Assembly (NCBI GenBank): GCA_000961655.1
Contig: LADR01000012.1
Span: forward strand, 1-64,000
DNA: 64,000 nucleotides
Source: Desulfatitalea sp. BRH_c12
GTDB lineage: Bacteria; Desulfobacterota; Desulfobacteria; Desulfobacterales; Desulfosarcinaceae
Direction of reading: 5' to 3'
Shown: positions 10,283 to 38,917 of the stretch, in pieces
Numbering within the stretch: position 1 is the first letter of the stretch
How the letters are laid out: every line of letters begins with the position of its first letter
Notes under the pieces: model-generated
What the model was told of the DNA's origin: nothing
Databases searched by the model: none
Seen by the model: the letters and a program-made list of their open reading frames with translations, nothing else
Program-made: the position numbers and the translations under genes

Positions 10283-10340
10283 GGGTTAAGTTAAAAAGTT
10301 AAGGGCGTCCCCAACTCTCCCAGGGCGTCCCCAACTCTCC
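10283..10340 (+). repeat. Dispersed repeat with GGGCGTCCCCAACT motif, short copy
   Basis: It begins GGGTTAAGTTAAAAAGTTA and then carries two tandem copies of GGGCGTCCCCAACTCTCC. It lacks the ~80-bp left part present in the copies at 7394 and 11464. It lies between the GT39 gene and the convergent rsgA. Confidence 0.75.
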
Positions 10341-11463: not shown

Positions 11464-11607
11464 AAACATTCCGGCTGTGCAGCGCCGGCTAATAGTGTTC
11501 GCGGACATTTATCTGTATCGTGCCCGGCGTCCGTCACGAGTCATTGTAAGTACAAGTTAATAAGTTAAGGGCGTCCCCAACTCTCCCAGGGCGTCCCCAA
11601 CTCTCCC
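11464..11607 (+). repeat. Dispersed repeat with GGGCGTCCCCAACT motif, copy 2
   Basis: This copy is in the same orientation as 7394-7527 and shares the order ACATTCCGGCTG, CAGCGCCGG, ATCTG..TCGTGCCCGGCGTCC, AAGTTAATAAGTTAAGGGCG, then two tandem GGGCGTCCCCAACTCTCC. Together the two copies bracket the glycosyltransferase and rsgA block as direct repeats. Confidence 0.75.
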
Positions 11608-16928: not shown

Positions 16929-18365
16929 ATGCAATCCATTAAAAAAGGCCTATGGCGGATGATCACCCTCATTGGGACCCTCAGCGCTGTTCTGGTGCTG
17001 ATAGGCGCCCACGACCGAGCGCAGGCAACCCGGATTGCCCCGGCAGCCGCGGGGGCCCACGGCAACGGCGACATCGTCCAACTGAGCACCGCGCTGGTGC
17101 AGGACAAACTCCTGATCGGATCGGATGGCAAGATTTCGGTGGCGATCGATCTGACGGTCGAAGAGATGCCTGCCCTGATCACCGACCGGCCTCGGCAGCG
17201 GATCGACCTGGTGGTGGTGCTGGACCGCAGCGGCTCCATGCAGGGGCAGAAGCTCGATTATGCCCGTCAAGCCATTGTGCGCATGTTGGACTGGCTGTCG
17301 CCCGAAGATCGTCTGGGATTGATCATCTACGATGATACCATCCAGACCCTTTTACCCCTGACCACGGTCAACGAGTCGCATCGACGGATCTTCGCGGCCA
17401 CCGTCGCCCAGATCCAGGCCGGCGGCGGCACCAATCTGGGTGGCGGCCTGCAGGTCGGCATCGATGCCGCGCGGCATTTTCCGGCCGAGGGACGTCTCCG
17501 CAAGGTCATCCTGATCTCCGACGGCCTGGCCAATCACGGCATCACCGATCCGGCCGCCCTGGGGCGCATGGCCTCCGGCGCGGTTGCGCACGGCATTGCT
17601 GTCAGCACGGTAGGGGTCGGCTATGATTTTAATGAATCCCTGATGACCGCGCTGGCCGATTATGGCGCCGGACGCTACCATTTCCTGGAAAATCCGCAAA
17701 CATTCACGGCCGTGCTGCAACACGAGTTCGAGAGCACCCGCAACGTGGCCGCGGTCGGCCTTGAAATTCGCCTGCCGCTCAAAAACGGCTTGCGCCTCCT
17801 GGATGCCGGCGGCTACCCGATCCAGAAAGAGGGCAATGTGGCCGTGATCCAGCCAGGCGACCTGCTCAGCGCTGAGCGGCGGCGGATCTTTCTGACCTTG
17901 CAACTGCCCGTTGACCGCGCCCGCCAACACACCATCGGCGGCCTGACCGTACGGTATCAGCACGCCGGTCGCCCGGTTACCCTGACGTTGCCCAAACCCC
18001 TGACCGTGGCCTGCGTGGCCGATGAAGCCGCCGTGCTGGGCAGCATCGACAAGACGGTTTGGGGCAGCCAGGTCGTACAGGAGGATTTCGGACGGTTGAA
18101 GGAAACGGTGGCCGACGCCATTCGCAATGGGAAGAAAAAAGAGGCTCTGGACCTGATCAAGACCTATGAGTCCCGTACCGAAGCCATCAACAGCAGCGTG
18201 GCATCGCCGCAGGTGAGTGAAAACCTCGAGGGCGAAGTACAGATCCTGCGGCGCAGCGTGGAAGAGACCTTCAGCGGTGCGCCCGCGGCGGTGGCCGAGA
18301 AGCAAAAGCAAAATGCGAAGAGTTTGCAATACGATGGCTATAAGAGCCGCAGGGATAAGAAATAA
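16929..18365 (+). CDS. Secreted von Willebrand factor A domain protein
   Basis: A 478-residue protein with a signal peptide (charged start, hydrophobic core, cut near AQA at ~31-33). Residues ~92-270 form a vWA domain with the metal-ion site DRSGS (Asp99, Ser101, Ser103), a later GGTNLGGGL threonine and the VILISDGLAN aspartate, so the MIDAS looks complete. The C-terminal half resembles that of bacterial Ca-activated-channel-like or TerY-like proteins and ends in a Lys-rich tail. CAGGAG precedes the ATG. It is divergent from the two-component pair. It probably mediates metal-dependent protein contacts in the periplasm. Confidence 0.87.
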   Translation: MQSIKKGLWRMITLIGTLSAVLVLIGAHDRAQATRIAPAAAGAHGNGDIVQLSTALVQDKLLIGSDGKISVAIDLTVEEMPALITDRPRQRIDLVVVLDRSGSMQGQKLDYARQAIVRMLDWLSPEDRLGLIIYDDTIQTLLPLTTVNESHRRIFAATVAQIQAGGGTNLGGGLQVGIDAARHFPAEGRLRKVILISDGLANHGITDPAALGRMASGAVAHGIAVSTVGVGYDFNESLMTALADYGAGRYHFLENPQTFTAVLQHEFESTRNVAAVGLEIRLPLKNGLRLLDAGGYPIQKEGNVAVIQPGDLLSAERRRIFLTLQLPVDRARQHTIGGLTVRYQHAGRPVTLTLPKPLTVACVADEAAVLGSIDKTVWGSQVVQEDFGRLKETVADAIRNGKKKEALDLIKTYESRTEAINSSVASPQVSENLEGEVQILRRSVEETFSGAPAAVAEKQKQNAKSLQYDGYKSRRDKK

Positions 18366-18374
18366 ACAGGGGGC

Positions 18375-18415
18375 ATCAGGCCACTGGCGACTGTCGCCTG
18401 TGGCCTGATCTTTTT
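18375..18415 (+). terminator. Rho-independent terminator after the vWA gene
   Basis: A stem ATCAGGCCAC..GGCGA / TCGCC..GTGGCCTGAT with a CTG loop is followed by CTTTTT. It starts 10 bp after the vWA stop codon. Confidence 0.9.
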
Positions 18416-18473
18416 CATGCGCGCAGCCCGGATAGCTGCTGCTGCAGCAACCATCGCGCTGCGCGCCGTTTGT

Positions 18474-19040
18474 TCAGAGCACCATGGAACGTCGCGCCCA
18501 GGTACTGGAAGGATAATATCGTTGACACTTTTCCCACTCTTCGGATAGACGCGCGGGTTCGTGCGAAGCCAGGTATCTGCTCACGCCAAGATAATAGATG
18601 GCTTCCGGCGCGAAGTCACTTTGCGGGTAACGGTCAAACACCGCTTTGAAATAGGGCACGGCCTGGTCGAATTTTTTGCGATGCAGTTGATAATGACCTT
18701 GGGCGATGATCAGCATGGCAGCGCACTCGGCAGGCGAAAGCCAACCTTCACTATGGTAGACCGGTTTTTCCCTGTTCAGGATGTTCAGGTTGGGCGTCCA
18801 GATGACCTGAAACTTATCGACAAGTTTCGGGGCTTTCTCGACATTCACCTGCACCGGCACAAAATGGTCGTTCAGCATGGCAGCCACGGTGGCATCCGGG
18901 TACGTCACGGCACCCATTTTTGCGCAGCCGCCTCACCCATCCTTGAAAAAATCGAGCATGACCGGTTTTTTTTCATCGCGGGCTTTTTCGATCCCTTGAT
19001 CGTAATCTTCGATCCAATTGACTTTAATGTCCGCAGTCAT
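18474..19040 (-). CDS. Thioredoxin-fold selenoprotein (Sec36, U-G-G-C) with TPR-like tail
   Basis: Read through one in-frame TGA (18935-18933), this gives 188 residues. Before the TGA lies VNWIEDYDQGIEKARDEKKP then VMLDFFKDG, the start of a thioredoxin fold. After it come GGCAKMGAVTYPD and FVPVQVNVE, the continuation of the same fold. The TGA falls exactly at the first Cys of the usual WCxxC, giving U-G-G-C. The start ATG at 19040 has GGAGG upstream, while the internal ATG at 18917 (after the TGA) has no ribosome site and would lose the active site. Residues ~105-185 form TPR-like helices. A hairpin suited to a bacterial SECIS follows the TGA. It is probably a thiol/selenol oxidoreductase. 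The alternative is a nonsense mutation, but coding character is intact on both sides. Confidence 0.8.
18898..18938 (-). promoter_or_regulatory. Candidate bacterial SECIS hairpin
   Basis: On the minus strand, GGGT overlapping the UGA pairs with ACCC about 35 nt on. CGGC pairs with GCCG inside it, leaving an apical loop around GCGCAAAAATGG. Position immediately after UGA fits a SelB-binding element, but pairing was judged only by eye. Confidence 0.45.
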
Positions 19041-19362
19041 GACACACCTCCATTGGAAATTTTCATGCAATGACGCATGTCGTGTGTCGGTTATAGAATT
19101 TCGGATCATTTTAAAATAAGGGCTTGCGTGTATTCATGACGAGAATAGGGCGCAGGCAAGATCCGCAGGAAACCCGTGTGTTGGACGCGAACACAAGGTT
19201 CGCCCCTACGGTGCGAGACGGGGTATTGTGCTGGGGCGGCAGGTGGGAGACGGTCGAAATAGACCTTCCGCTGTTGATAGACCATTCAAAAATATCCTAA
19301 GGCATAAGATGATCTCTCCTTGGATGAAACGCGACTTTTCACAACCGTCAAAGTTCCCTAAC
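19041..19362. other. Intergenic region between selenoprotein and stress protein
   Basis: No gene is seen. It holds a fragment (19187-19207, GCGAACACAAGGTTCGCCCC) of the composite repeat family found at 45492, 55123 and 59601, here in reverse orientation. The selenoprotein promoter should lie at the left end of this stretch, just upstream of 19040. Confidence 0.4.
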
Positions 19363-19812
19363 TCATTGGTCGTTGTCAGACCGGATCAATAGAATCGGAA
19401 TGTCTGCCCCCTGCAACACCCCGGCCGCCACGCTGCCATAAGAGGCACGGGTCGAACCGCCTATCCCGTGCGAGGCAAGGGCGATAAGATCGGCGCCTGT
19501 TTCAGCGGCAGTGGCCAATATGGCTTTGACGACCGGCCCATAGACCAACCGTGTTTGCGCCTGTATGTCCTTCTCGCGCAACCTGGCTTGGAGCGTTTCC
19601 AGATAGGCACCGGACAGTTTTTTGCGTTTTTGCAAGTCTTCCTGATACTTGTCCATATCGATCACTTCGTCTCGATCCAGATACAGGATCTCTTCTTCGA
19701 CTTTCAGTAATATCACTTTCGCATCGTGTATTTTTCCCAGATTTTCGACATGATCCAAAATCGCTTCAGCCCGCTTCGACCCATCCAAGGGAATCAGGAT
19801 TGTTCGATACAT
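19363..19812 (-). CDS. Universal stress protein (UspA family)
   Basis: A 149-residue single-domain Usp with the N-terminal strand MYRTILIPLDGSKRAE and the ATP-site-like C-terminal part (SHGIGGSTRASYGSVA, then VLQGADIPILLIR). This is close to the G2xG9xG(S/T) nucleotide-binding pattern. The start is set at 19812 by AAAGGAGG upstream; the longer frame is not needed. It probably binds ATP and acts in stress survival. Nothing in the neighbours narrows this. Confidence 0.9.
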   Translation of the reverse strand: MYRTILIPLDGSKRAEAILDHVENLGKIHDAKVILLKVEEEILYLDRDEVIDMDKYQEDLQKRKKLSGAYLETLQARLREKDIQAQTRLVYGPVVKAILATAAETGADLIALASHGIGGSTRASYGSVAAGVLQGADIPILLIRSDNDQ

Positions 19813-20279
19813 TGTTGCCTCCTTTATGCATTTTTGGCGTTTTTCGCCGATCAACCACCCGGCATTGCACCACTCGTGGGCCCATCCCCCCTTTCCAGGG
19901 CGCGCATAAATCGGCCGGATGGATCACTGGCAGCAGGCGCTTTTGGAAAAAGGTGCGGGGCGATATTTTCCTTGGAGGAACTTGGAGGAACAAGATAAAA
20001 AATCGTAGAATGATTGCTCGGAAAGGTACATTGGGTGAAGGATGTATTTTTTATAGAATGTAGGGTGGGCATTGCCCACTGCTATTCCCCGCAAACAACA
20101 ACATCGGTTTCTGACACTGATCCCGCCCAGGCAATTGGATAGCCACCGGACATTGCGCGTTGATTACGGCCAATCACAGAAGCGATCAACATAATCAATG
20201 GTGGGCGATGCCCACGCTACCTGTCTGAAGCGAATTGGGTAACCCAATATTTTTATTTGGTGATGCGGTGCGCGCGTTT
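19813..20279. other. Intergenic region with paired GTGGGCA repeats
   Basis: No gene is seen. Two inverted copies of a hairpin repeat lie at 20060-20079 (GTAGGGTGGGCATTGCCCAC) and 20197-20220 (AATGGTGGGCGATGCCCACG). The same words occur as a pair at 55429-55617. A short direct repeat TTGGAGGAAC occurs near 19972-19990. Confidence 0.6.
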
Positions 20280-23367: not shown

Positions 23368-24012
23368 TCAGTAGCCCATTGCCTGATTGACCAGGACGAC
23401 GCTGATCTGGGTCAGCATGGGTTGGCGGTGTAAAATGGTGGTAATGCGGCAGATGCGTTGCGGCGAATGGCAATCGCTGCATAGACCGGTTTCGGCACAG
23501 GGGGTTTTCATGTTCAGGCTTTTGGCGCGCATGGGCGCGGCCACATCGCGGATGCGCTGCAGCGCGCCCGGAAGGTCGTTGGCCAGCTTGTTGATGCCGG
23601 CCACGATAATGACTCTGGCAGGGCCGAATCCCATGGCGCTGGTACGATTGCCGACGCCGTCCACGTTGACGATTTCACCGGTCATTGCAATGGCATTGGC
23701 GCTGCAGAAAAAGCAGTCGCAGGTCAGTTGGGCTTTGCGTGTTTCCATGATCGCTTGGGCGGAAAGATCGGTGCGCCAGTGATCGTAAACCGTCTTGCCC
23801 TCGGTCGCCAGCGTTTCGATGATATTGAGCATGCGCACCGTGTCGGAACCGCCGAACCCAAAGCTTTTGTAGGCTGCGGTCATGGACAGAACCAGACTGC
23901 GCGCCGCATCCAGATCAGCGACCCAGTGGGCATCGAACCCGTTTTTCTGAAGGTTGGAAACACATACCTGGCCGCGGCGTTCACCCAACCAATCACCATA
24001 AGACGTCTGCAT
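23368..24012 (-). CDS. LUD-domain protein (lactate-utilisation/LutC-like)
   Basis: A 214-residue protein of the LUD (DUF162) family, with FGFGGSDTVRMLN, CFFCSANAIAMTGEIVNVDG and GFGPARVIIVAGINKL in the normal order. It carries several Cys in CETGLCSDCHSP, more than a plain LutC, so a metal site is possible. Single LUD proteins without LutA/LutB are common and unassigned. LutA/LutB partners are not nearby. It lies downstream of a long palindromic repeat. Confidence 0.85.
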   Translation of the reverse strand: MQTSYGDWLGERRGQVCVSNLQKNGFDAHWVADLDAARSLVLSMTAAYKSFGFGGSDTVRMLNIIETLATEGKTVYDHWRTDLSAQAIMETRKAQLTCDCFFCSANAIAMTGEIVNVDGVGNRTSAMGFGPARVIIVAGINKLANDLPGALQRIRDVAAPMRAKSLNMKTPCAETGLCSDCHSPQRICRITTILHRQPMLTQISVVLVNQAMGY

Positions 24013-24824: not shown

Positions 24825-25328
24825 TCACTCCCGGATATCAGTATTTGCGCAAATGATCGAAGCGTTGGATGCGGTGGGGTGTTGGGGTTCGTGCCCCATG
24901 ATACGAATGATTTTAGGGCGATAGGCCTCCTGCAGTCCCATGCGCTGGCCCTTTCCGCGCACGATCAGCAAGGATGCCCCGAAACAGATCAGGGCCCCTA
25001 TGACGGCAGCGGTCGATGGATCGCACTCAAGCCGGGGCGCCAGCCAGCTGCCTATGAAACCGCCGGCCATCATGCACAAAATCGGGAACAGATAGAGCAG
25101 GAAGGTGGCTTTGAAAATGGCGCCCGAGCTGACTGAAAGCTGAATGCGATCGCCGACGGATGCGCCGGCCGTATTGATCGCCTCCACCTCCTGGGCAAGG
25201 CCCTCGCCGGAATGACAGCTATCCCGCGAAGCGCACGCTTCGCAGGCACTCGAACGCACGGTTTTGACCCATGCGGTGGTGGGGCCCTGCGGACCCAGCT
25301 TGATGACGATGCCTTGTTCGATGGCCAT
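24825..25328 (-). CDS. RseC/SoxR-reducing system family membrane protein
   Basis: A 167-residue protein with an N-terminal four-Cys motif CEACASRDSC, then two membrane helices (residues ~75-95 and ~105-120), the RseC/MucC layout. Family members occur beside Rnf clusters and are linked to SoxR reduction. Here it follows the RnfB-like fusion by 15 bp, which supports a role in electron transfer or cluster maturation for that complex. The C-terminal tail after residue 125 is longer than usual. Confidence 0.85.
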   Translation of the reverse strand: MAIEQGIVIKLGPQGPTTAWVKTVRSSACEACASRDSCHSGEGLAQEVEAINTAGASVGDRIQLSVSSGAIFKATFLLYLFPILCMMAGGFIGSWLAPRLECDPSTAAVIGALICFGASLLIVRGKGQRMGLQEAYRPKIIRIMGHEPQHPTASNASIICANTDIRE

Positions 25329-25343
25329 TGGAATTTCCTATGA

Positions 25344-27374
25344 TCAGCTGGCTATTGACTGCGGCAGGGTCTGCTGGTCGCGACGATAGCAGATCAGTCC
25401 GCATCGCAGGCACCGTTCAGCCTCGGCCTGGGCCATGGTCATGTCGAAACCGCGTTCCAGCTCTTTGCCTTGAGCCGTCTGATTGCTGTCGGTCAGGGGC
25501 ATGATCTGACGCAGGCGGGTGGCGACATTCACCACATGATCCACATTCTGTACCATCGTGTTCGGCGTGACCACGTGTTCCGGGAGATCCATGGGGATAT
25601 CGTACAGCGCGCGGTGCATCGAGGCCGCCGCGCGGCGTCCGGCGGCGATCGCCTTGATGGCGGCCGAAAAATCGGTGAGAACGTCGCCTTGGGCCATCAA
25701 CCCGGTTTCATGGTGATAGGCGGGCTGCTTATAAGGCGGCAAGGCCTGCCATGCGAGGGAAGCCGGCGCTTCGGTCGCTTCCGCAACGGTTTCGGGTGTA
25801 AAAACCAATTCGGGGATGCGCCCGGCGGTAAAGATGATGTGGTCGGCTTCCACGGTCTGCGATGTGCCGTCGGCAAGATCGATCAGCGCCACCGACGTTA
25901 ACGTGTCGTCTTGTCCATGCAGGCGGCCGATGCCGGTATTGACGCGCAGGTCCACCTGGGAGGGATCGATTTCGGAGGGGGCGGCTTCGCGCACGAGCAG
26001 TGTAATTTTACGGGCGCCCAGCTCTTTGCAGCGCGCGATCATGGCGGTGTTCAGGTTGGGGTTGCCGACGATTATGACATGGCCGTTGAGCGCGACTTCG
26101 GGGTAGCCTTCACGACCGCTTTTGACGATATCGATCAGCAGATGGCAGCCGGGCACGGGGCTGACGTCGCCCTTGCCCGCGGTGCGGGCCAGGCGGCCAT
26201 CCCACCCACCGACAGCCATGAACACGGCCTGGTAGCCCTCGGACAAGAGGTCCATCACTGACAGATCGCGTCCGAGCTGCTTGCCGGTTTCGGCTTTGAC
26301 ACCCATGTCCAGAATGCCTTCGATGTCCCAATCCAGCACGGGCATGGGCAGACGATAGCGTGCAATGGCGCTGCGCAGCAAGCCGCCCAGTTGATCCTGG
26401 GCTTCGAACACCGTGGTGTCATGTCCCAGACGCGCGGAAAAGAAAGCGGCCGACAGGCCTTCCACACCGCCGCCGATCACCGCCACCCGGCGGCCGCTGG
26501 CGGGTGCTTTATACGGTTGCACATGTTTGCCCTGGGCCATTTCGACATCGGCGGCATAGCGTTTGAGAAAATTGATGGCCACCGGCTCGTCCACGAGCTG
26601 ACGCCGGCACTCGTTTTCACACGGCCGCGGACAGATGCGTCCGATGACGGTCGGGAACGGGTTGCGTTCCTTGATAATCTGGACGGCCTTATTGTAATCG
26701 CCTTCGCTGACGGCGCCGATGTAGCCGCTGATGTTGATGCCGGCCGGGCAGGCGCGCTGGCAAGGCGTGGTGCAGTCTTCGGTGGTGTATTCTTTAAGGA
26801 TGCGGCGCGTGACCGAAGAGAGGGTGATGATATGCTTGGGGCAGACCCTTTCGCAGGTGCCGCATCCCGTGCAGCGGTTTTCGTGGACCACGGGCAGACC
26901 CTTGGGGCCCATGGTGATGGCGCCGAACGGACACACTTTGGCACAGGTGCCCAAACCGACGCATCCGATCGTGCAGACTTTCATGCCGCCATTGAGCAAG
27001 GCCACGGCACGGCAATCGTTCAGGCCGTCATAGACGAATTTTGTATCCGCATCGATGGTGCCATAGGTGCAGCCGGGCAGGGCGATGTCCGGTTCCTTGG
27101 CCTCGAGGGAGACCCCTAGAATACCGGCGATGGCAGCAGCCACTTCCGGTCCGGCCGCCACGCAGGAGTTGGCCGCGGCCCGTCCGGCCACGATGGCCTC
27201 GGCATTGGCCGAGCAGCCGGGCATGCCGCACCCGCCGCAATTGGCCCCGGGCAGGGCCGCCTCAACATCCAGGATTTTGGGGTCCACGTAGACATAGAAA
27301 ACTTTCGAGGCGATAGCCAGCCCCACGCCGACCACCAACCCCAGTGCACCCATCAATATGATTGCGATTACCAT
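25344..27374 (-). CDS. RnfB-like polyferredoxin fused to GltD-like flavoprotein
   Basis: A 676-residue protein. Residues 3-26 are a membrane helix. Cys46, 49, 54 and 71 form the Fes-type 4Fe-4S site seen in RnfB. Cys134/138/144/148 and 168/171/174/178 form two ferredoxin clusters. Residues ~200-260 hold more Cys (CTTPCQRAC, CPRPCENEC), as in the N-terminal domain of GltD/dihydropyrimidine dehydrogenase. An FAD-binding loop VAVIGGGVEG follows at 298-307. The second dinucleotide site is changed to IIVGNPNLNT, so NAD(P)H binding there is doubtful. The C-terminal CLRCGLIC (655-662) may hold another cluster. It is likely membrane-anchored and passes electrons between flavin and clusters. It sits between NuoF-like and RseC-like genes. 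Confidence 0.88.
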   Translation of the reverse strand: MVIAIILMGALGLVVGVGLAIASKVFYVYVDPKILDVEAALPGANCGGCGMPGCSANAEAIVAGRAAANSCVAAGPEVAAAIAGILGVSLEAKEPDIALPGCTYGTIDADTKFVYDGLNDCRAVALLNGGMKVCTIGCVGLGTCAKVCPFGAITMGPKGLPVVHENRCTGCGTCERVCPKHIITLSSVTRRILKEYTTEDCTTPCQRACPAGINISGYIGAVSEGDYNKAVQIIKERNPFPTVIGRICPRPCENECRRQLVDEPVAINFLKRYAADVEMAQGKHVQPYKAPASGRRVAVIGGGVEGLSAAFFSARLGHDTTVFEAQDQLGGLLRSAIARYRLPMPVLDWDIEGILDMGVKAETGKQLGRDLSVMDLLSEGYQAVFMAVGGWDGRLARTAGKGDVSPVPGCHLLIDIVKSGREGYPEVALNGHVIIVGNPNLNTAMIARCKELGARKITLLVREAAPSEIDPSQVDLRVNTGIGRLHGQDDTLTSVALIDLADGTSQTVEADHIIFTAGRIPELVFTPETVAEATEAPASLAWQALPPYKQPAYHHETGLMAQGDVLTDFSAAIKAIAAGRRAAASMHRALYDIPMDLPEHVVTPNTMVQNVDHVVNVATRLRQIMPLTDSNQTAQGKELERGFDMTMAQAEAERCLRCGLICYRRDQQTLPQSIAS

Positions 27375-36133: not shown

Positions 36134-37741
36134 ATGGAGTCACAGCGCAGAAATATCGCCATCGCCTGCCAGGGCGGCGGCAGTCAGACGGCGTTTACGG
36201 CCGGCGTTTTGAAATCACTCTTTGACCAGGGAATCCAGAACACCCATCGCATTGTCAGTTTCAGCGGCACATCGGGAGGTGCGATCTGCGCCACGCTGGC
36301 GTGGTATGATATGATTAAATCCGCTAAAAGCAACGCGACTCCGGACCTGCGGCGCCTGAGTGATTTTTGGGAAGATAATGCCACCCAATACCCACACGAA
36401 GATCTTTTTAATGATTGGATGATAGGGGCATTGCAGTTGATTGACAGCGGTTGCCTGCCCCATTGGGAAACATCTTTGGAGACCCCCATGGCTGGTTTCT
36501 GGCCGGGGATCTCCGCCATGCTGCCACATCCGAATTTTTACAACTTCAGATCGCTGCTGGAAACGCATATCGATTTCGAGGAGATTCGATCGTGGGGCCG
36601 CGTCGACACGCCTGCACTGCTGATCGGCGCTGCCAACGTGCTTACTGGCGATTTTAAGAAGTTCAGTTCACTCAAGGGAGAAATCCAGGTGGAAGCCCTG
36701 CTGGCCTCGGCCGCTGTACCCACGCTGTTTTCAGCGGTGACCATCGGCGCGGACACCTATTGGGATGGGCTTTTTTCGGATAATCCGCCGACAGATGAAC
36801 TGCTCGATGAAGAATTGGTCGGCGCGGACAATTTGCCTGATGAAATTTGGATTATCCAAATCAACCCCGTCACGTGTGATCGCGTGCCACGACAGCCCAA
36901 GGAGATCGCCGACCGCCGCAACGAAATGATCGGCAATCAATCCCTGCTGCAGGATCTTCAAAAGATCACCATGATCAACCGATTTCTGGAAAAAGGGGCG
37001 TTTACGCCGGAGTTTCAAGCCAAATACCGGCCGGTGCGCATCCGCATGATCGAGATGCCGTTCGAGCGCAAGCAGCAATTGGATTATGCCACCAAACTGG
37101 ATCGCAGCCGCCGCTTCATTAAAGGACTGATGGCAGATGGCGAGCGACAAGGCCGACAGTTCCTGCAAGAGATAGCCGCTGAAATGGCGTCTGCGCCGAT
37201 CTCGCGGTCGGATATGCTATCGGACATCACGTCGGATATTTCGTCGGATATTTCGTCGGATATTCCATCAGAGATTCCATCGGATATTCCATCGGAGATT
37301 CCGTCGGAGATTCCATCGGATATTCCATCGGATATTCCATCGGATATTCCATCGGATATTCCATCAGATATTCCATCAGATATTCCATCAGAGATTCCAT
37401 CGGATATTCCATCAGAGATTCCGTCGGATATTCCGTCGGAGATTCCATCGGATATTCCGTCGGATATTCCGTCGGATATTCCATCAGAGATTCCATCAGA
37501 GATTCCATCAGATATTCCATCAGAGATTCCGTCGGAGATTCCCTCGGAGATTCCATCGGAGATTCCGTCAGAGATTCCATCAGACATCTCGTCGGATATT
37601 CCGCCGGATATTTCTACGGACATGCCACCAGACGTTTCTCCGGATATTCCGCCGGTTAAATCCAAGCCGGTTAAATCAAAGCCGGTCAAGTCGAAGATGC
37701 CAAAAGCGGTCACATCCAAACGCAAGAAAACGCGTAATTGA
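36134..37741 (+). CDS. Patatin-like phospholipase with (S-D/E-I-P)n tail
   Basis: A 535-residue protein. Residues 1-~350 are a patatin domain with the oxyanion loop QGGGSQTAF, nucleophile GTSGG (Ser47) and the Asp-Gly dyad YWDGLF (Asp211), so it should be an active acyl hydrolase. Residues ~359-500 are ~35 tetrapeptides SDIP/SEIP, acidic and probably extended. The end (~505-535) is strongly basic, with three KPVKS units then KMPKAVTSKRKKTRN. No signal peptide is seen. The tail may mediate binding to a surface or polymer. AAAGGAGG precedes the ATG. It splits the salvage cluster between ade and mtnA. Confidence 0.87.
   Translation: MESQRRNIAIACQGGGSQTAFTAGVLKSLFDQGIQNTHRIVSFSGTSGGAICATLAWYDMIKSAKSNATPDLRRLSDFWEDNATQYPHEDLFNDWMIGALQLIDSGCLPHWETSLETPMAGFWPGISAMLPHPNFYNFRSLLETHIDFEEIRSWGRVDTPALLIGAANVLTGDFKKFSSLKGEIQVEALLASAAVPTLFSAVTIGADTYWDGLFSDNPPTDELLDEELVGADNLPDEIWIIQINPVTCDRVPRQPKEIADRRNEMIGNQSLLQDLQKITMINRFLEKGAFTPEFQAKYRPVRIRMIEMPFERKQQLDYATKLDRSRRFIKGLMADGERQGRQFLQEIAAEMASAPISRSDMLSDITSDISSDISSDIPSEIPSDIPSEIPSEIPSDIPSDIPSDIPSDIPSDIPSDIPSEIPSDIPSEIPSDIPSEIPSDIPSDIPSDIPSEIPSEIPSDIPSEIPSEIPSEIPSEIPSEIPSDISSDIPPDISTDMPPDVSPDIPPVKSKPVKSKPVKSKMPKAVTSKRKKTRN
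37207..37656 (+). repeat. 12-bp in-frame tandem repeat
   Basis: About 36 copies of a 12-bp unit (TC[GA]GA[TG]ATTCC[AG]) code for the SDIP/SEIP tail. Each unit keeps frame, so copy changes alter tail length only. The reverse strand also stays open because of the periodicity. Confidence 0.95.
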
Positions 37742-37831: not shown

Positions 37832-38917
37832 ATGACTCAGACAATGCGCACCATATGGTTGGATCAAGACGGCTGCACCGTTCAGGTGATCGATCAACGT
37901 TTATTGCCGCATCGCTTGGAAACTTTGCCGTTGACCACGGTTGACCAGTTCATTTACGCCATCCGTGAGATGGTGGTGCGCGGCGCGCCTCTGATCGGGG
38001 TGACGGGTGCCTACGGCGTTCTGGCCGCGCTGTTGACCACTGGCGATGACGATCTTTTCATGCAGGAATGTCAACGCCTGAAAGCGGCCCGTCCCACAGC
38101 CGTGAACCTGGCGTGGGCCATCGACCGGATGCTGGCGGTGGTCATGCAGGCCGAGTGGGGCGCAGCGCGCATCGCCAGCGGCCGCCGGGAGGCGGCTGCC
38201 ATCGCCGAAGAGGAGGTTGTGCGCTGCCGACGGATCGGCGAGTATGGCGCCCGCTTACTGGCAGATCTGAGCCGTGCCCGGCGAGGCCGCACGGTCAACA
38301 TTCTGACGCATTGCAATGCCGGGTGGCTGGCTTGCGTAGAGTGGGGCACGGCCACAGCGCCGGTCTATGTGGCCCACGAACAGGGGATCGATCTGCATGT
38401 GTGGGTCGATGAAACACGCCCCCTCAATCAGGGCGCTCGGCTGACCGCCTGGGAACTGGGGCGCGCCGGCATCAAGCACACGGTCGTGACCGATAACGCC
38501 GGTGGCCACCTCATGCAGCACGGGCTGGTGGACATGGTGATCGTGGGCACCGACCGCACCACCTATACCGGCGATGTGGCCAATAAGATCGGGACCTATC
38601 TCAAGGCACTCGCCGCCAAGGACAACGACATTCCCTTTTACGTCGCCTTGCCTTCGTCGACCTTCGACTGGCAACTGCGCGACGGCGTGCGCCAAATCCC
38701 CATCGAGGACCGGCATGCGGACGAGGTCCGTTTTGTTCAAGGCCTCTACCAGCATGCGCGGGCATCCGTCCTGGTGCCGCCCCAGGACAGTCCGGCCGCC
38801 AACCCGGCCTTCGATGTCACGCCGGCGCGCCTTGTCACCGGCTTTATCACCGAACGAGGCGTTTGTGCGGCGAATGAACAGGCGATTCTGGCGCTGTTTC
38901 CCGAAAGAAAAGAATGA
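37832..38917 (+). CDS. mtnA: S-methyl-5-thioribose-1-phosphate isomerase
   Basis: A 361-residue aldose-ketose isomerase of the MtnA/eIF2B-like family with VVRGAPLIGVTGAYG, THCNAGWLACVEWG (catalytic Cys) and VIVGTDRTTYTGDVANKIGTY-type residues around the catalytic Asp (DRTT). It turns methylthioribose-1-phosphate into methylthioribulose-1-phosphate, the step after the nucleoside phosphorylase encoded upstream. ATG at 37832 follows GGGGAGA; the longer frame from 37754 adds an unlikely leader. No MtnB/C/D is nearby, in keeping with an anaerobic outlet. Confidence 0.93.
   Translation: MTQTMRTIWLDQDGCTVQVIDQRLLPHRLETLPLTTVDQFIYAIREMVVRGAPLIGVTGAYGVLAALLTTGDDDLFMQECQRLKAARPTAVNLAWAIDRMLAVVMQAEWGAARIASGRREAAAIAEEEVVRCRRIGEYGARLLADLSRARRGRTVNILTHCNAGWLACVEWGTATAPVYVAHEQGIDLHVWVDETRPLNQGARLTAWELGRAGIKHTVVTDNAGGHLMQHGLVDMVIVGTDRTTYTGDVANKIGTYLKALAAKDNDIPFYVALPSSTFDWQLRDGVRQIPIEDRHADEVRFVQGLYQHARASVLVPPQDSPAANPAFDVTPARLVTGFITERGVCAANEQAILALFPERKE

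Follow-up and report, generated by a model that had tools for sequence, protein, structure and literature searches.

A prokaryotic selenoprotein listed under the name 'Thiol:disulfide interchange protein' is the nearest described counterpart of the gene presented here. Its entry in a 2026 inventory of prokaryotic selenoproteins, which credits it to a 2004 paper, gives the domain PF13098, a UxxC motif and the sequence WP_011366075.1 (PMC13188914), and a table published in 2006 holds three sequences under that name, from Syntrophus aciditrophicus, Geobacter metallireducens and G. uraniumreducens (PMC1794560). Other described proteins share a single part with the gene product, namely DsbD, with its thioredoxin-like C-terminal (gamma) domain carrying a CxxC motif, TsoB, a rhodanese/DsbD-like selenoprotein (NF045694), and the TPR domain of CpoB/YbgF. 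The latter domain is larger and periplasmic.

The gene, from Desulfatitalea sp. BRH_c12, occurs in what is called here the window, i.e., the whole stretch of 64,000 nucleotides that was analysed. With the listed 'Thiol:disulfide interchange protein', its family shares the PF13098 domain (48 of 48 members scanned) and a UxxC motif with selenocysteine (Sec) in the first position, and the hosts appear to belong to the same broad group; unlike the window protein, the protein is described in the corresponding entries of both sources (PMC13188914, PMC1794560) with no mention of a TPR tail. Owing to this fit of domain and motif, the family is probably identical to the listed selenoprotein. The resemblance to DsbD is confined to profile matches with the C-terminal domain (2fwe and others); among the NCBIfam models, NF001419 (DsbD) gives the window protein its highest score, 37.2 bits against a cut-off of 330, but the protein has no transmembrane or alpha domain and carries a TPR-like tail in their place. 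Similarly, the thioredoxin-like C-terminal part of TsoB (positions 457-544 of 572) matches with 34.6 bits against a cut-off of 805, whereas the rhodanese/DsbD part is missing and one Sec is found instead of two. The tail matches CpoB/YbgF by profile (6g5s, E 4e-11; 2xev, E 7.5e-8) but is short and attached to a redox domain. When six members, the window protein and five others, were compared with the NCBIfam models, every score stayed below the respective cut-off.

Gene structure and domain organization

The features of the locus, all located on the minus strand, are as follows:

18474..19040, minus: full predicted selenoprotein gene, 188 codons and terminal TGA (18474-18476), start ATG at 19038-19040
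19047..19051, minus: Shine-Dalgarno sequence GGAGG, 6 nt 5' of the ATG, read from the sequence
18933..18935, minus: in-frame TGA, residue 36, predicted Sec in the first UxxC position; the column holds TGA in 97 and TGC in 9 of the 108 members
18924..18926, minus: Cys39, second redox Cys and predicted resolving residue, nearly invariant in 48 aligned members
18898..18915, minus: core of the predicted SECIS hairpin, GGGUGC-CGUGAC-GUACCC; in 96 distinct Sec windows, 94.1% of the pairs are standard ones, and compensatory changes occur
18474..18917, minus: truncated form in the standard ORF list, 147 residues, starting 3' of the TGA
18711..19034, minus: thioredoxin-like domain, residues 3-110, over Pfam cut-offs, with profile matches to thioredoxin structures and to the C-terminal domain of DsbD
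18792..18794, minus: Pro83, invariant in 48 members
18483..18719, minus: TPR-like helical tail, residues 108-186, by TPR_6 and by CpoB/YbgF profile matches

The coordinates given in the original prediction are correct, and the strand is minus. Read through with the TGA as U, the 188-residue translation contains the motif D-F-F-K-D-G-U-G-G-C. However, a TGA-interrupted open frame is unremarkable by chance: the window holds 160 TGA codons with at least 25 open codons 5' from a start and at least 30 open codons 3', so that the case must rest on relatives. Among these 160 frames, 35 combine a Cys near the TGA with a fold energy of -8 or lower, and a Shine-Dalgarno core precedes a start in two of the 35, the selenoprotein gene and a frame at 38297. 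The latter, a short frame on the minus strand with 40 codons before and 50 codons after its TGA and a Cys nearby, is probably due to chance. The selenoprotein gene is taken as real because its two halves are parts of a single protein family, in which the TGA column is conserved.

In this respect, the GGAGG in front of the ATG agrees with the strong ribosome site claimed for the upstream start, and a Shine-Dalgarno core occurs 5' of the full-length start in 106 of 108 family members, a count partly due to construction since the script favoured such cores in choosing the start. Conversely, as expected for a downstream start devoid of a ribosome site, no such core occurs between -16 and -5 at the first ATG, GTG or TTG after the TGA in 96 of the 97 members of the Sec form. 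A promoter and terminator scan of 18340-19380 returned a single promoter-like minus-strand site, which lies within the gene; upstream of the gene there was none.

By comparison of sequences, the N-terminal part of the protein is thioredoxin-like and the C-terminal part TPR-like. The window protein scores above the Pfam cut-offs for Thioredox_DsbH, Thioredoxin_7, Thioredoxin_2 (PF13098; 42.4 bits, cut-off 27) and Thioredoxin, and reaches 22.4 bits for TPR_6, below the cut-off of 26.3. In a scan of 48 members, a subset of the 108 excluding the two whose redox column holds Thr or Glu, Thioredoxin_2 and Thioredoxin_7 were found in all 48, TPR_6 in 37 and TPR_14 in 24 (E <= 0.01), in line with both the thioredoxin-like and the TPR-like assignment of the original prediction. 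The profile built from these 48 rows matches DsbD and thioredoxin structures over residues ~5-110, and CpoB and YbgF over ~113-184. W9, F31, the redox column, T82, P83, G99, L165 and W181 are invariant in the alignment, and Pro83 stands at what we take to be the place of the thioredoxin cis-proline. The conserved residues of the tail are A127, E146, A147, L165 and W181. The N-terminus displays neither a hydrophobic stretch nor an evident signal peptide in the translation. A single-sequence structure model reached a pLDDT of 40.5, too low to be used for the fold.

No conserved partner gene was found when the ORFs of at least 80 residues were clustered from ~7 kb around the window gene and from the flanks of the 108 members (roughly 1.5 to 3 kb, shorter where a contig ended). 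The largest cluster comprises 9 loci at varied distances, including the response-regulator gene of the window; a second one, of 7 loci that are all antisense, resembles reading-frame noise. The gene next upstream codes for a universal stress protein (19366-19854, minus). Elsewhere in the window, a RseC/MucC-domain gene adjoins a large Fe-S/FAD pyridine-nucleotide oxidoreductase gene (24828-27374, minus), accompanied by a LUD-domain gene at 23371-24012. Repeats include ~12.6 copies of a 126-bp unit with 82-86% matches at the window edge (1-1582), a 12/24/36-bp array at 37207-37614 whose adjoining frame encodes repeated Y-P-T-K, and the 20-bp unit AGGGCGTCCCCAACTCTCCC, present as two tandem copies at each of 10302-10340 and 11568-11607, ~1.25 kb apart.

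Conservation of the TGA, the hairpin and the selenocysteine machinery

A search with the protein as query matched 89 of 97 genomes, its own included, at E <= 0.001, mostly through other thioredoxin-like proteins; full-length matches occurred in 6 of the 97 genomes, each with exactly one internal TGA. A six-row profile recovered 20 full-length places in 19 genomes, again with one TGA each, among 389 genomes drawn from the class. In a draw of 395 genomes from the phylum, presumably Desulfobacterota, 95 matched the profile at E <= 1e-18, of which 11 (G594 among them) gave shorter or partial matches only and were left out; the family thus occurs in 84 of the 395 genomes, counted from the places listed, 75 with a full-length TGA form and 9 with a full-length form lacking the TGA. 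A plasmid search returned two partial matches. Two further loci came from one contig scan for relatives: L050 (KSB1) matches the tail part of the profile only, with 15 matches in one frame among the matches listed, and L051 does not appear among the matches listed at E <= 1.

From 113 loci within the start and end limits of the profile, minus 5 that repeated a place already taken, 108 members were extracted; G230:C58 and G618:C135, listed with one TGA each, lie outside this set. The median identity between members is 41%. At the aligned column, the codon is TGA in 97 members, TGC (Cys) in 9, ACG (Thr) in one and GAG (Glu) in one, and in each of the 97 Sec-form members the conserved TGA is the single in-frame one. 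The Cys that was to be looked for at the TGA position of homologues is thus present, and the occurrence of the same TGA in other genomes speaks against a sequencing error at 18933-18935. Homologues also extend upstream of the TGA and do not all start after it. Comparison of close pairs gave dN/dS values well under 1 both before and after the TGA, as expected under purifying selection: the window gene compared with G001 gives 0.065 upstream (35 codons) and 0.123 downstream (152 codons), and the highest values among 18 pairs chosen by eye, at least one side being not computable in three of them, are 0.387 upstream and 0.425 downstream, the latter in a Cys-Sec pair.

At the RNA level, the stretch located 20-37 nt past the T of the TGA is strongly conserved, with an invariant G at +27. 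Its six-pair stem, the best among the 6-bp hairpins scanned in 60 nt, is standard-paired in 94.1% of cells, the cells being sequences counted and not independent events. Exchanges on both sides of the stem were observed at pair 21-36 (G-C 82, A-T 11), pair 22-35 (A-T 59, G-C 20) and pair 23-34 (T-A 78, A-T 4). A seven-pair version of the stem is paired to a fraction of 0.878 in the 96 Sec windows, and resampling of synonymous codons gave 0.625 (sd 0.014) for seven pairs, with a maximum of 0.665 in 300 resamplings, below the observed value. Sliding the 3' side gave 0.22-0.38, except for the -2 register, which is paired to 0.69 and shows 39 double changes, equal to the true register. The 11 non-Sec members do not share the pairing (0.364). 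For the window sequence alone, the fold energy is ordinary over 48 nt (z -0.22) and reaches z -1.94 over 26 nt, and no Rfam match was found in the window at gathering cut-offs. The hairpin falls inside the stretch 18898-18938 that had been pointed out for a SECIS check. We read the conserved hairpin, from its comparative pattern, as a putative SECIS element to which SelB would bind.

The genome contains the complete set of genes named in the original prediction as selA, selB, selC and selD, all over cut-off: SelA (613.8, cut-off 268), SelB (379.5 bits, cut-off 242), tRNA-Sec (72.4, cut-off 47) and SelD (372.6, cut-off 125). An in-frame TGA occurs inside SelD and is followed by A-S-K-L, which presumably corresponds to the SelD active site. 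SelB scores above cut-off in 353 of the 395 genomes drawn from the phylum, so that finding it says little by itself. Among the 75 Sec-form genomes, 72 possess SelB and the other three (G665, G720, G430) possess tRNA-Sec; among the 9 genomes of the non-Sec form, SelB is missing in four (G667, G580, G662, G752), in which no tRNA-Sec was found at E <= 1e-9, and the other five possess both. The difference in SelB between the two forms has a Fisher p of 0.002, but G580, G662 and G752 belong to one genus. Two species placed in one genus differ in this respect, G738 having the TGA, SelB and tRNA-Sec, and G667 having TGC and neither of the two. The machinery persists in five of the nine non-Sec genomes, so that the loss of Sec from this protein needs no loss of the Sec trait.

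Proposed function and alternative readings

The gene structure, the conserved TGA, the conserved hairpin, the Sec machinery and the domain homology are established by comparison, and the TGA at 18933-18935 almost certainly encodes Sec at the thioredoxin-like active site. Taken as one reading, a genuine selenoprotein gene with a SelB-bound hairpin, Sec insertion, a U-G-G-C oxidoreductase and a docking tail is an explanation that we hold with high confidence. Accordingly worded as a model, SelB bound to the hairpin 20-37 nt past the UGA would deliver Sec-tRNA, so that translation would continue to 188 residues. The product would be a thioredoxin-like oxidoreductase, probably cytoplasmic in view of its N-terminus, and presumably active in the direction of reduction. 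The chemistry of thioredoxins, in which one residue acts as the nucleophile and the other resolves the intermediate, suggests that Sec36 of U-G-G-C would attack a substrate disulfide or similar bond and that Cys39 would resolve the mixed intermediate. Given the usual role of TPRs, the most likely function of the short TPR-like tail is to dock a partner or client.

A pseudogene or a sequencing error, in which the TGA would be a nonsense mutation or a misread base, is suggested by the break of the gene at the TGA in the standard ORF list and by the frequency of such open frames by length alone; nevertheless, the TGA shared at one column by 97 members from many genomes, the low dN/dS that close pairs show before as well as after the TGA, and the hairpin conserved in the RNA render it extremely improbable. 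The same negligible credit is given to a true start at 18917, where an ATG is indeed present and from which a protein of 147 residues, lacking the first redox residue, would be made: the 35 upstream codons encode a conserved protein sequence that is homologous to the strand-helix part at the beginning of thioredoxin domains, the members without TGA run through in one frame, and the first later start is devoid of a Shine-Dalgarno core in nearly all Sec-form members. A read-through or reassignment of the TGA to another amino acid such as Trp or Cys, with no selenium involved, likewise predicts the full-length protein. TGA also serves, however, as the terminal stop of the window gene and of 40 of the 108 members, the hairpin points to Sec, and SelB, tRNA-Sec and the TGA are jointly absent in four genomes, so that this explanation is hardly credible either.

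A quite different credit has to be given to a selenoprotein as proposed, the tail of which would be a structural cap or an oligomerisation helix bundle devoid of any docking function. With ~75 residues, the tail accommodates about one to two TPR-like units only, it is shortened in two members (G760:C102 and G690:C2), and no conserved partner gene accompanies it; on the other hand, the vast majority of the 108 members retain it, and it has conserved residues. We consider such a non-docking tail a serious, though the less probable, option, and retain the selenoprotein with a docking tail as the preferred reading.

Non-Sec forms and significance of the family

On the tree, the Sec/non-Sec label changes three times, at a clade of 9 rows from family f127, at G667 and at G404, the row of the latter (L112) being flagged as a long-branch join with L066. 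The TGC form of G667 clusters with two Sec forms, those of G720 and G738 (support 100/83). The window gene belongs to a divergent group together with G001 and G003 of the same genus, G056 and G625, which the long branch of L128 from G733 joins at lower certainty. The nine members of f127 (L111, L113-L120) keep the full-length scaffold, one with CxxC, six with CxxS and two without the first redox residue, and most of them can therefore not perform a classical dithiol exchange. Since the root of the tree is arbitrary, no direction of change is claimed for f127.

The combination of a thioredoxin and a TPR-like part with Sec had been called unusual in the original prediction. This does not hold for the family as such, which is frequent in the phylum (84 of 395 genomes) and probably already listed under another name, but the tail was not found described: a narrow literature search, with most subscription papers outside its coverage, revealed no mention of a TPR tail in a thioredoxin selenoprotein, and the word 'tetratricopeptide' is absent from the prokaryotic selenoprotein papers PMC13188914 and PMC9312934. 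The family also extends beyond the three species tabulated in 2006 (PMC1794560). As anticipated, a standard gene caller yields only the last 147 residues of the window protein, and in Sec-form members it would lose the active site. With the active site dropped in this way, and with all NCBIfam scores of the six members staying under the cut-offs, mis-annotation of the gene is probable throughout a large phylum. In this respect, the alignment and the hairpin consensus could help annotators to correct the annotation of the family.

The pair of G738 (TGA) and G667 (TGC) within one genus offers a natural test of the exchange of Sec for Cys. With regard to the role of the family, we tentatively suggest, as a rather speculative view, that it is ancient and phylum-wide and that its selenoproteins are reductases dedicated to clients, the TPR-like tail bringing a specific partner to the Sec site; the f127 lineage would have given up the classical dithiol chemistry. 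In this view, the scaffold kept by f127 without this chemistry suggests that the protein may possess a second, non-redox function.
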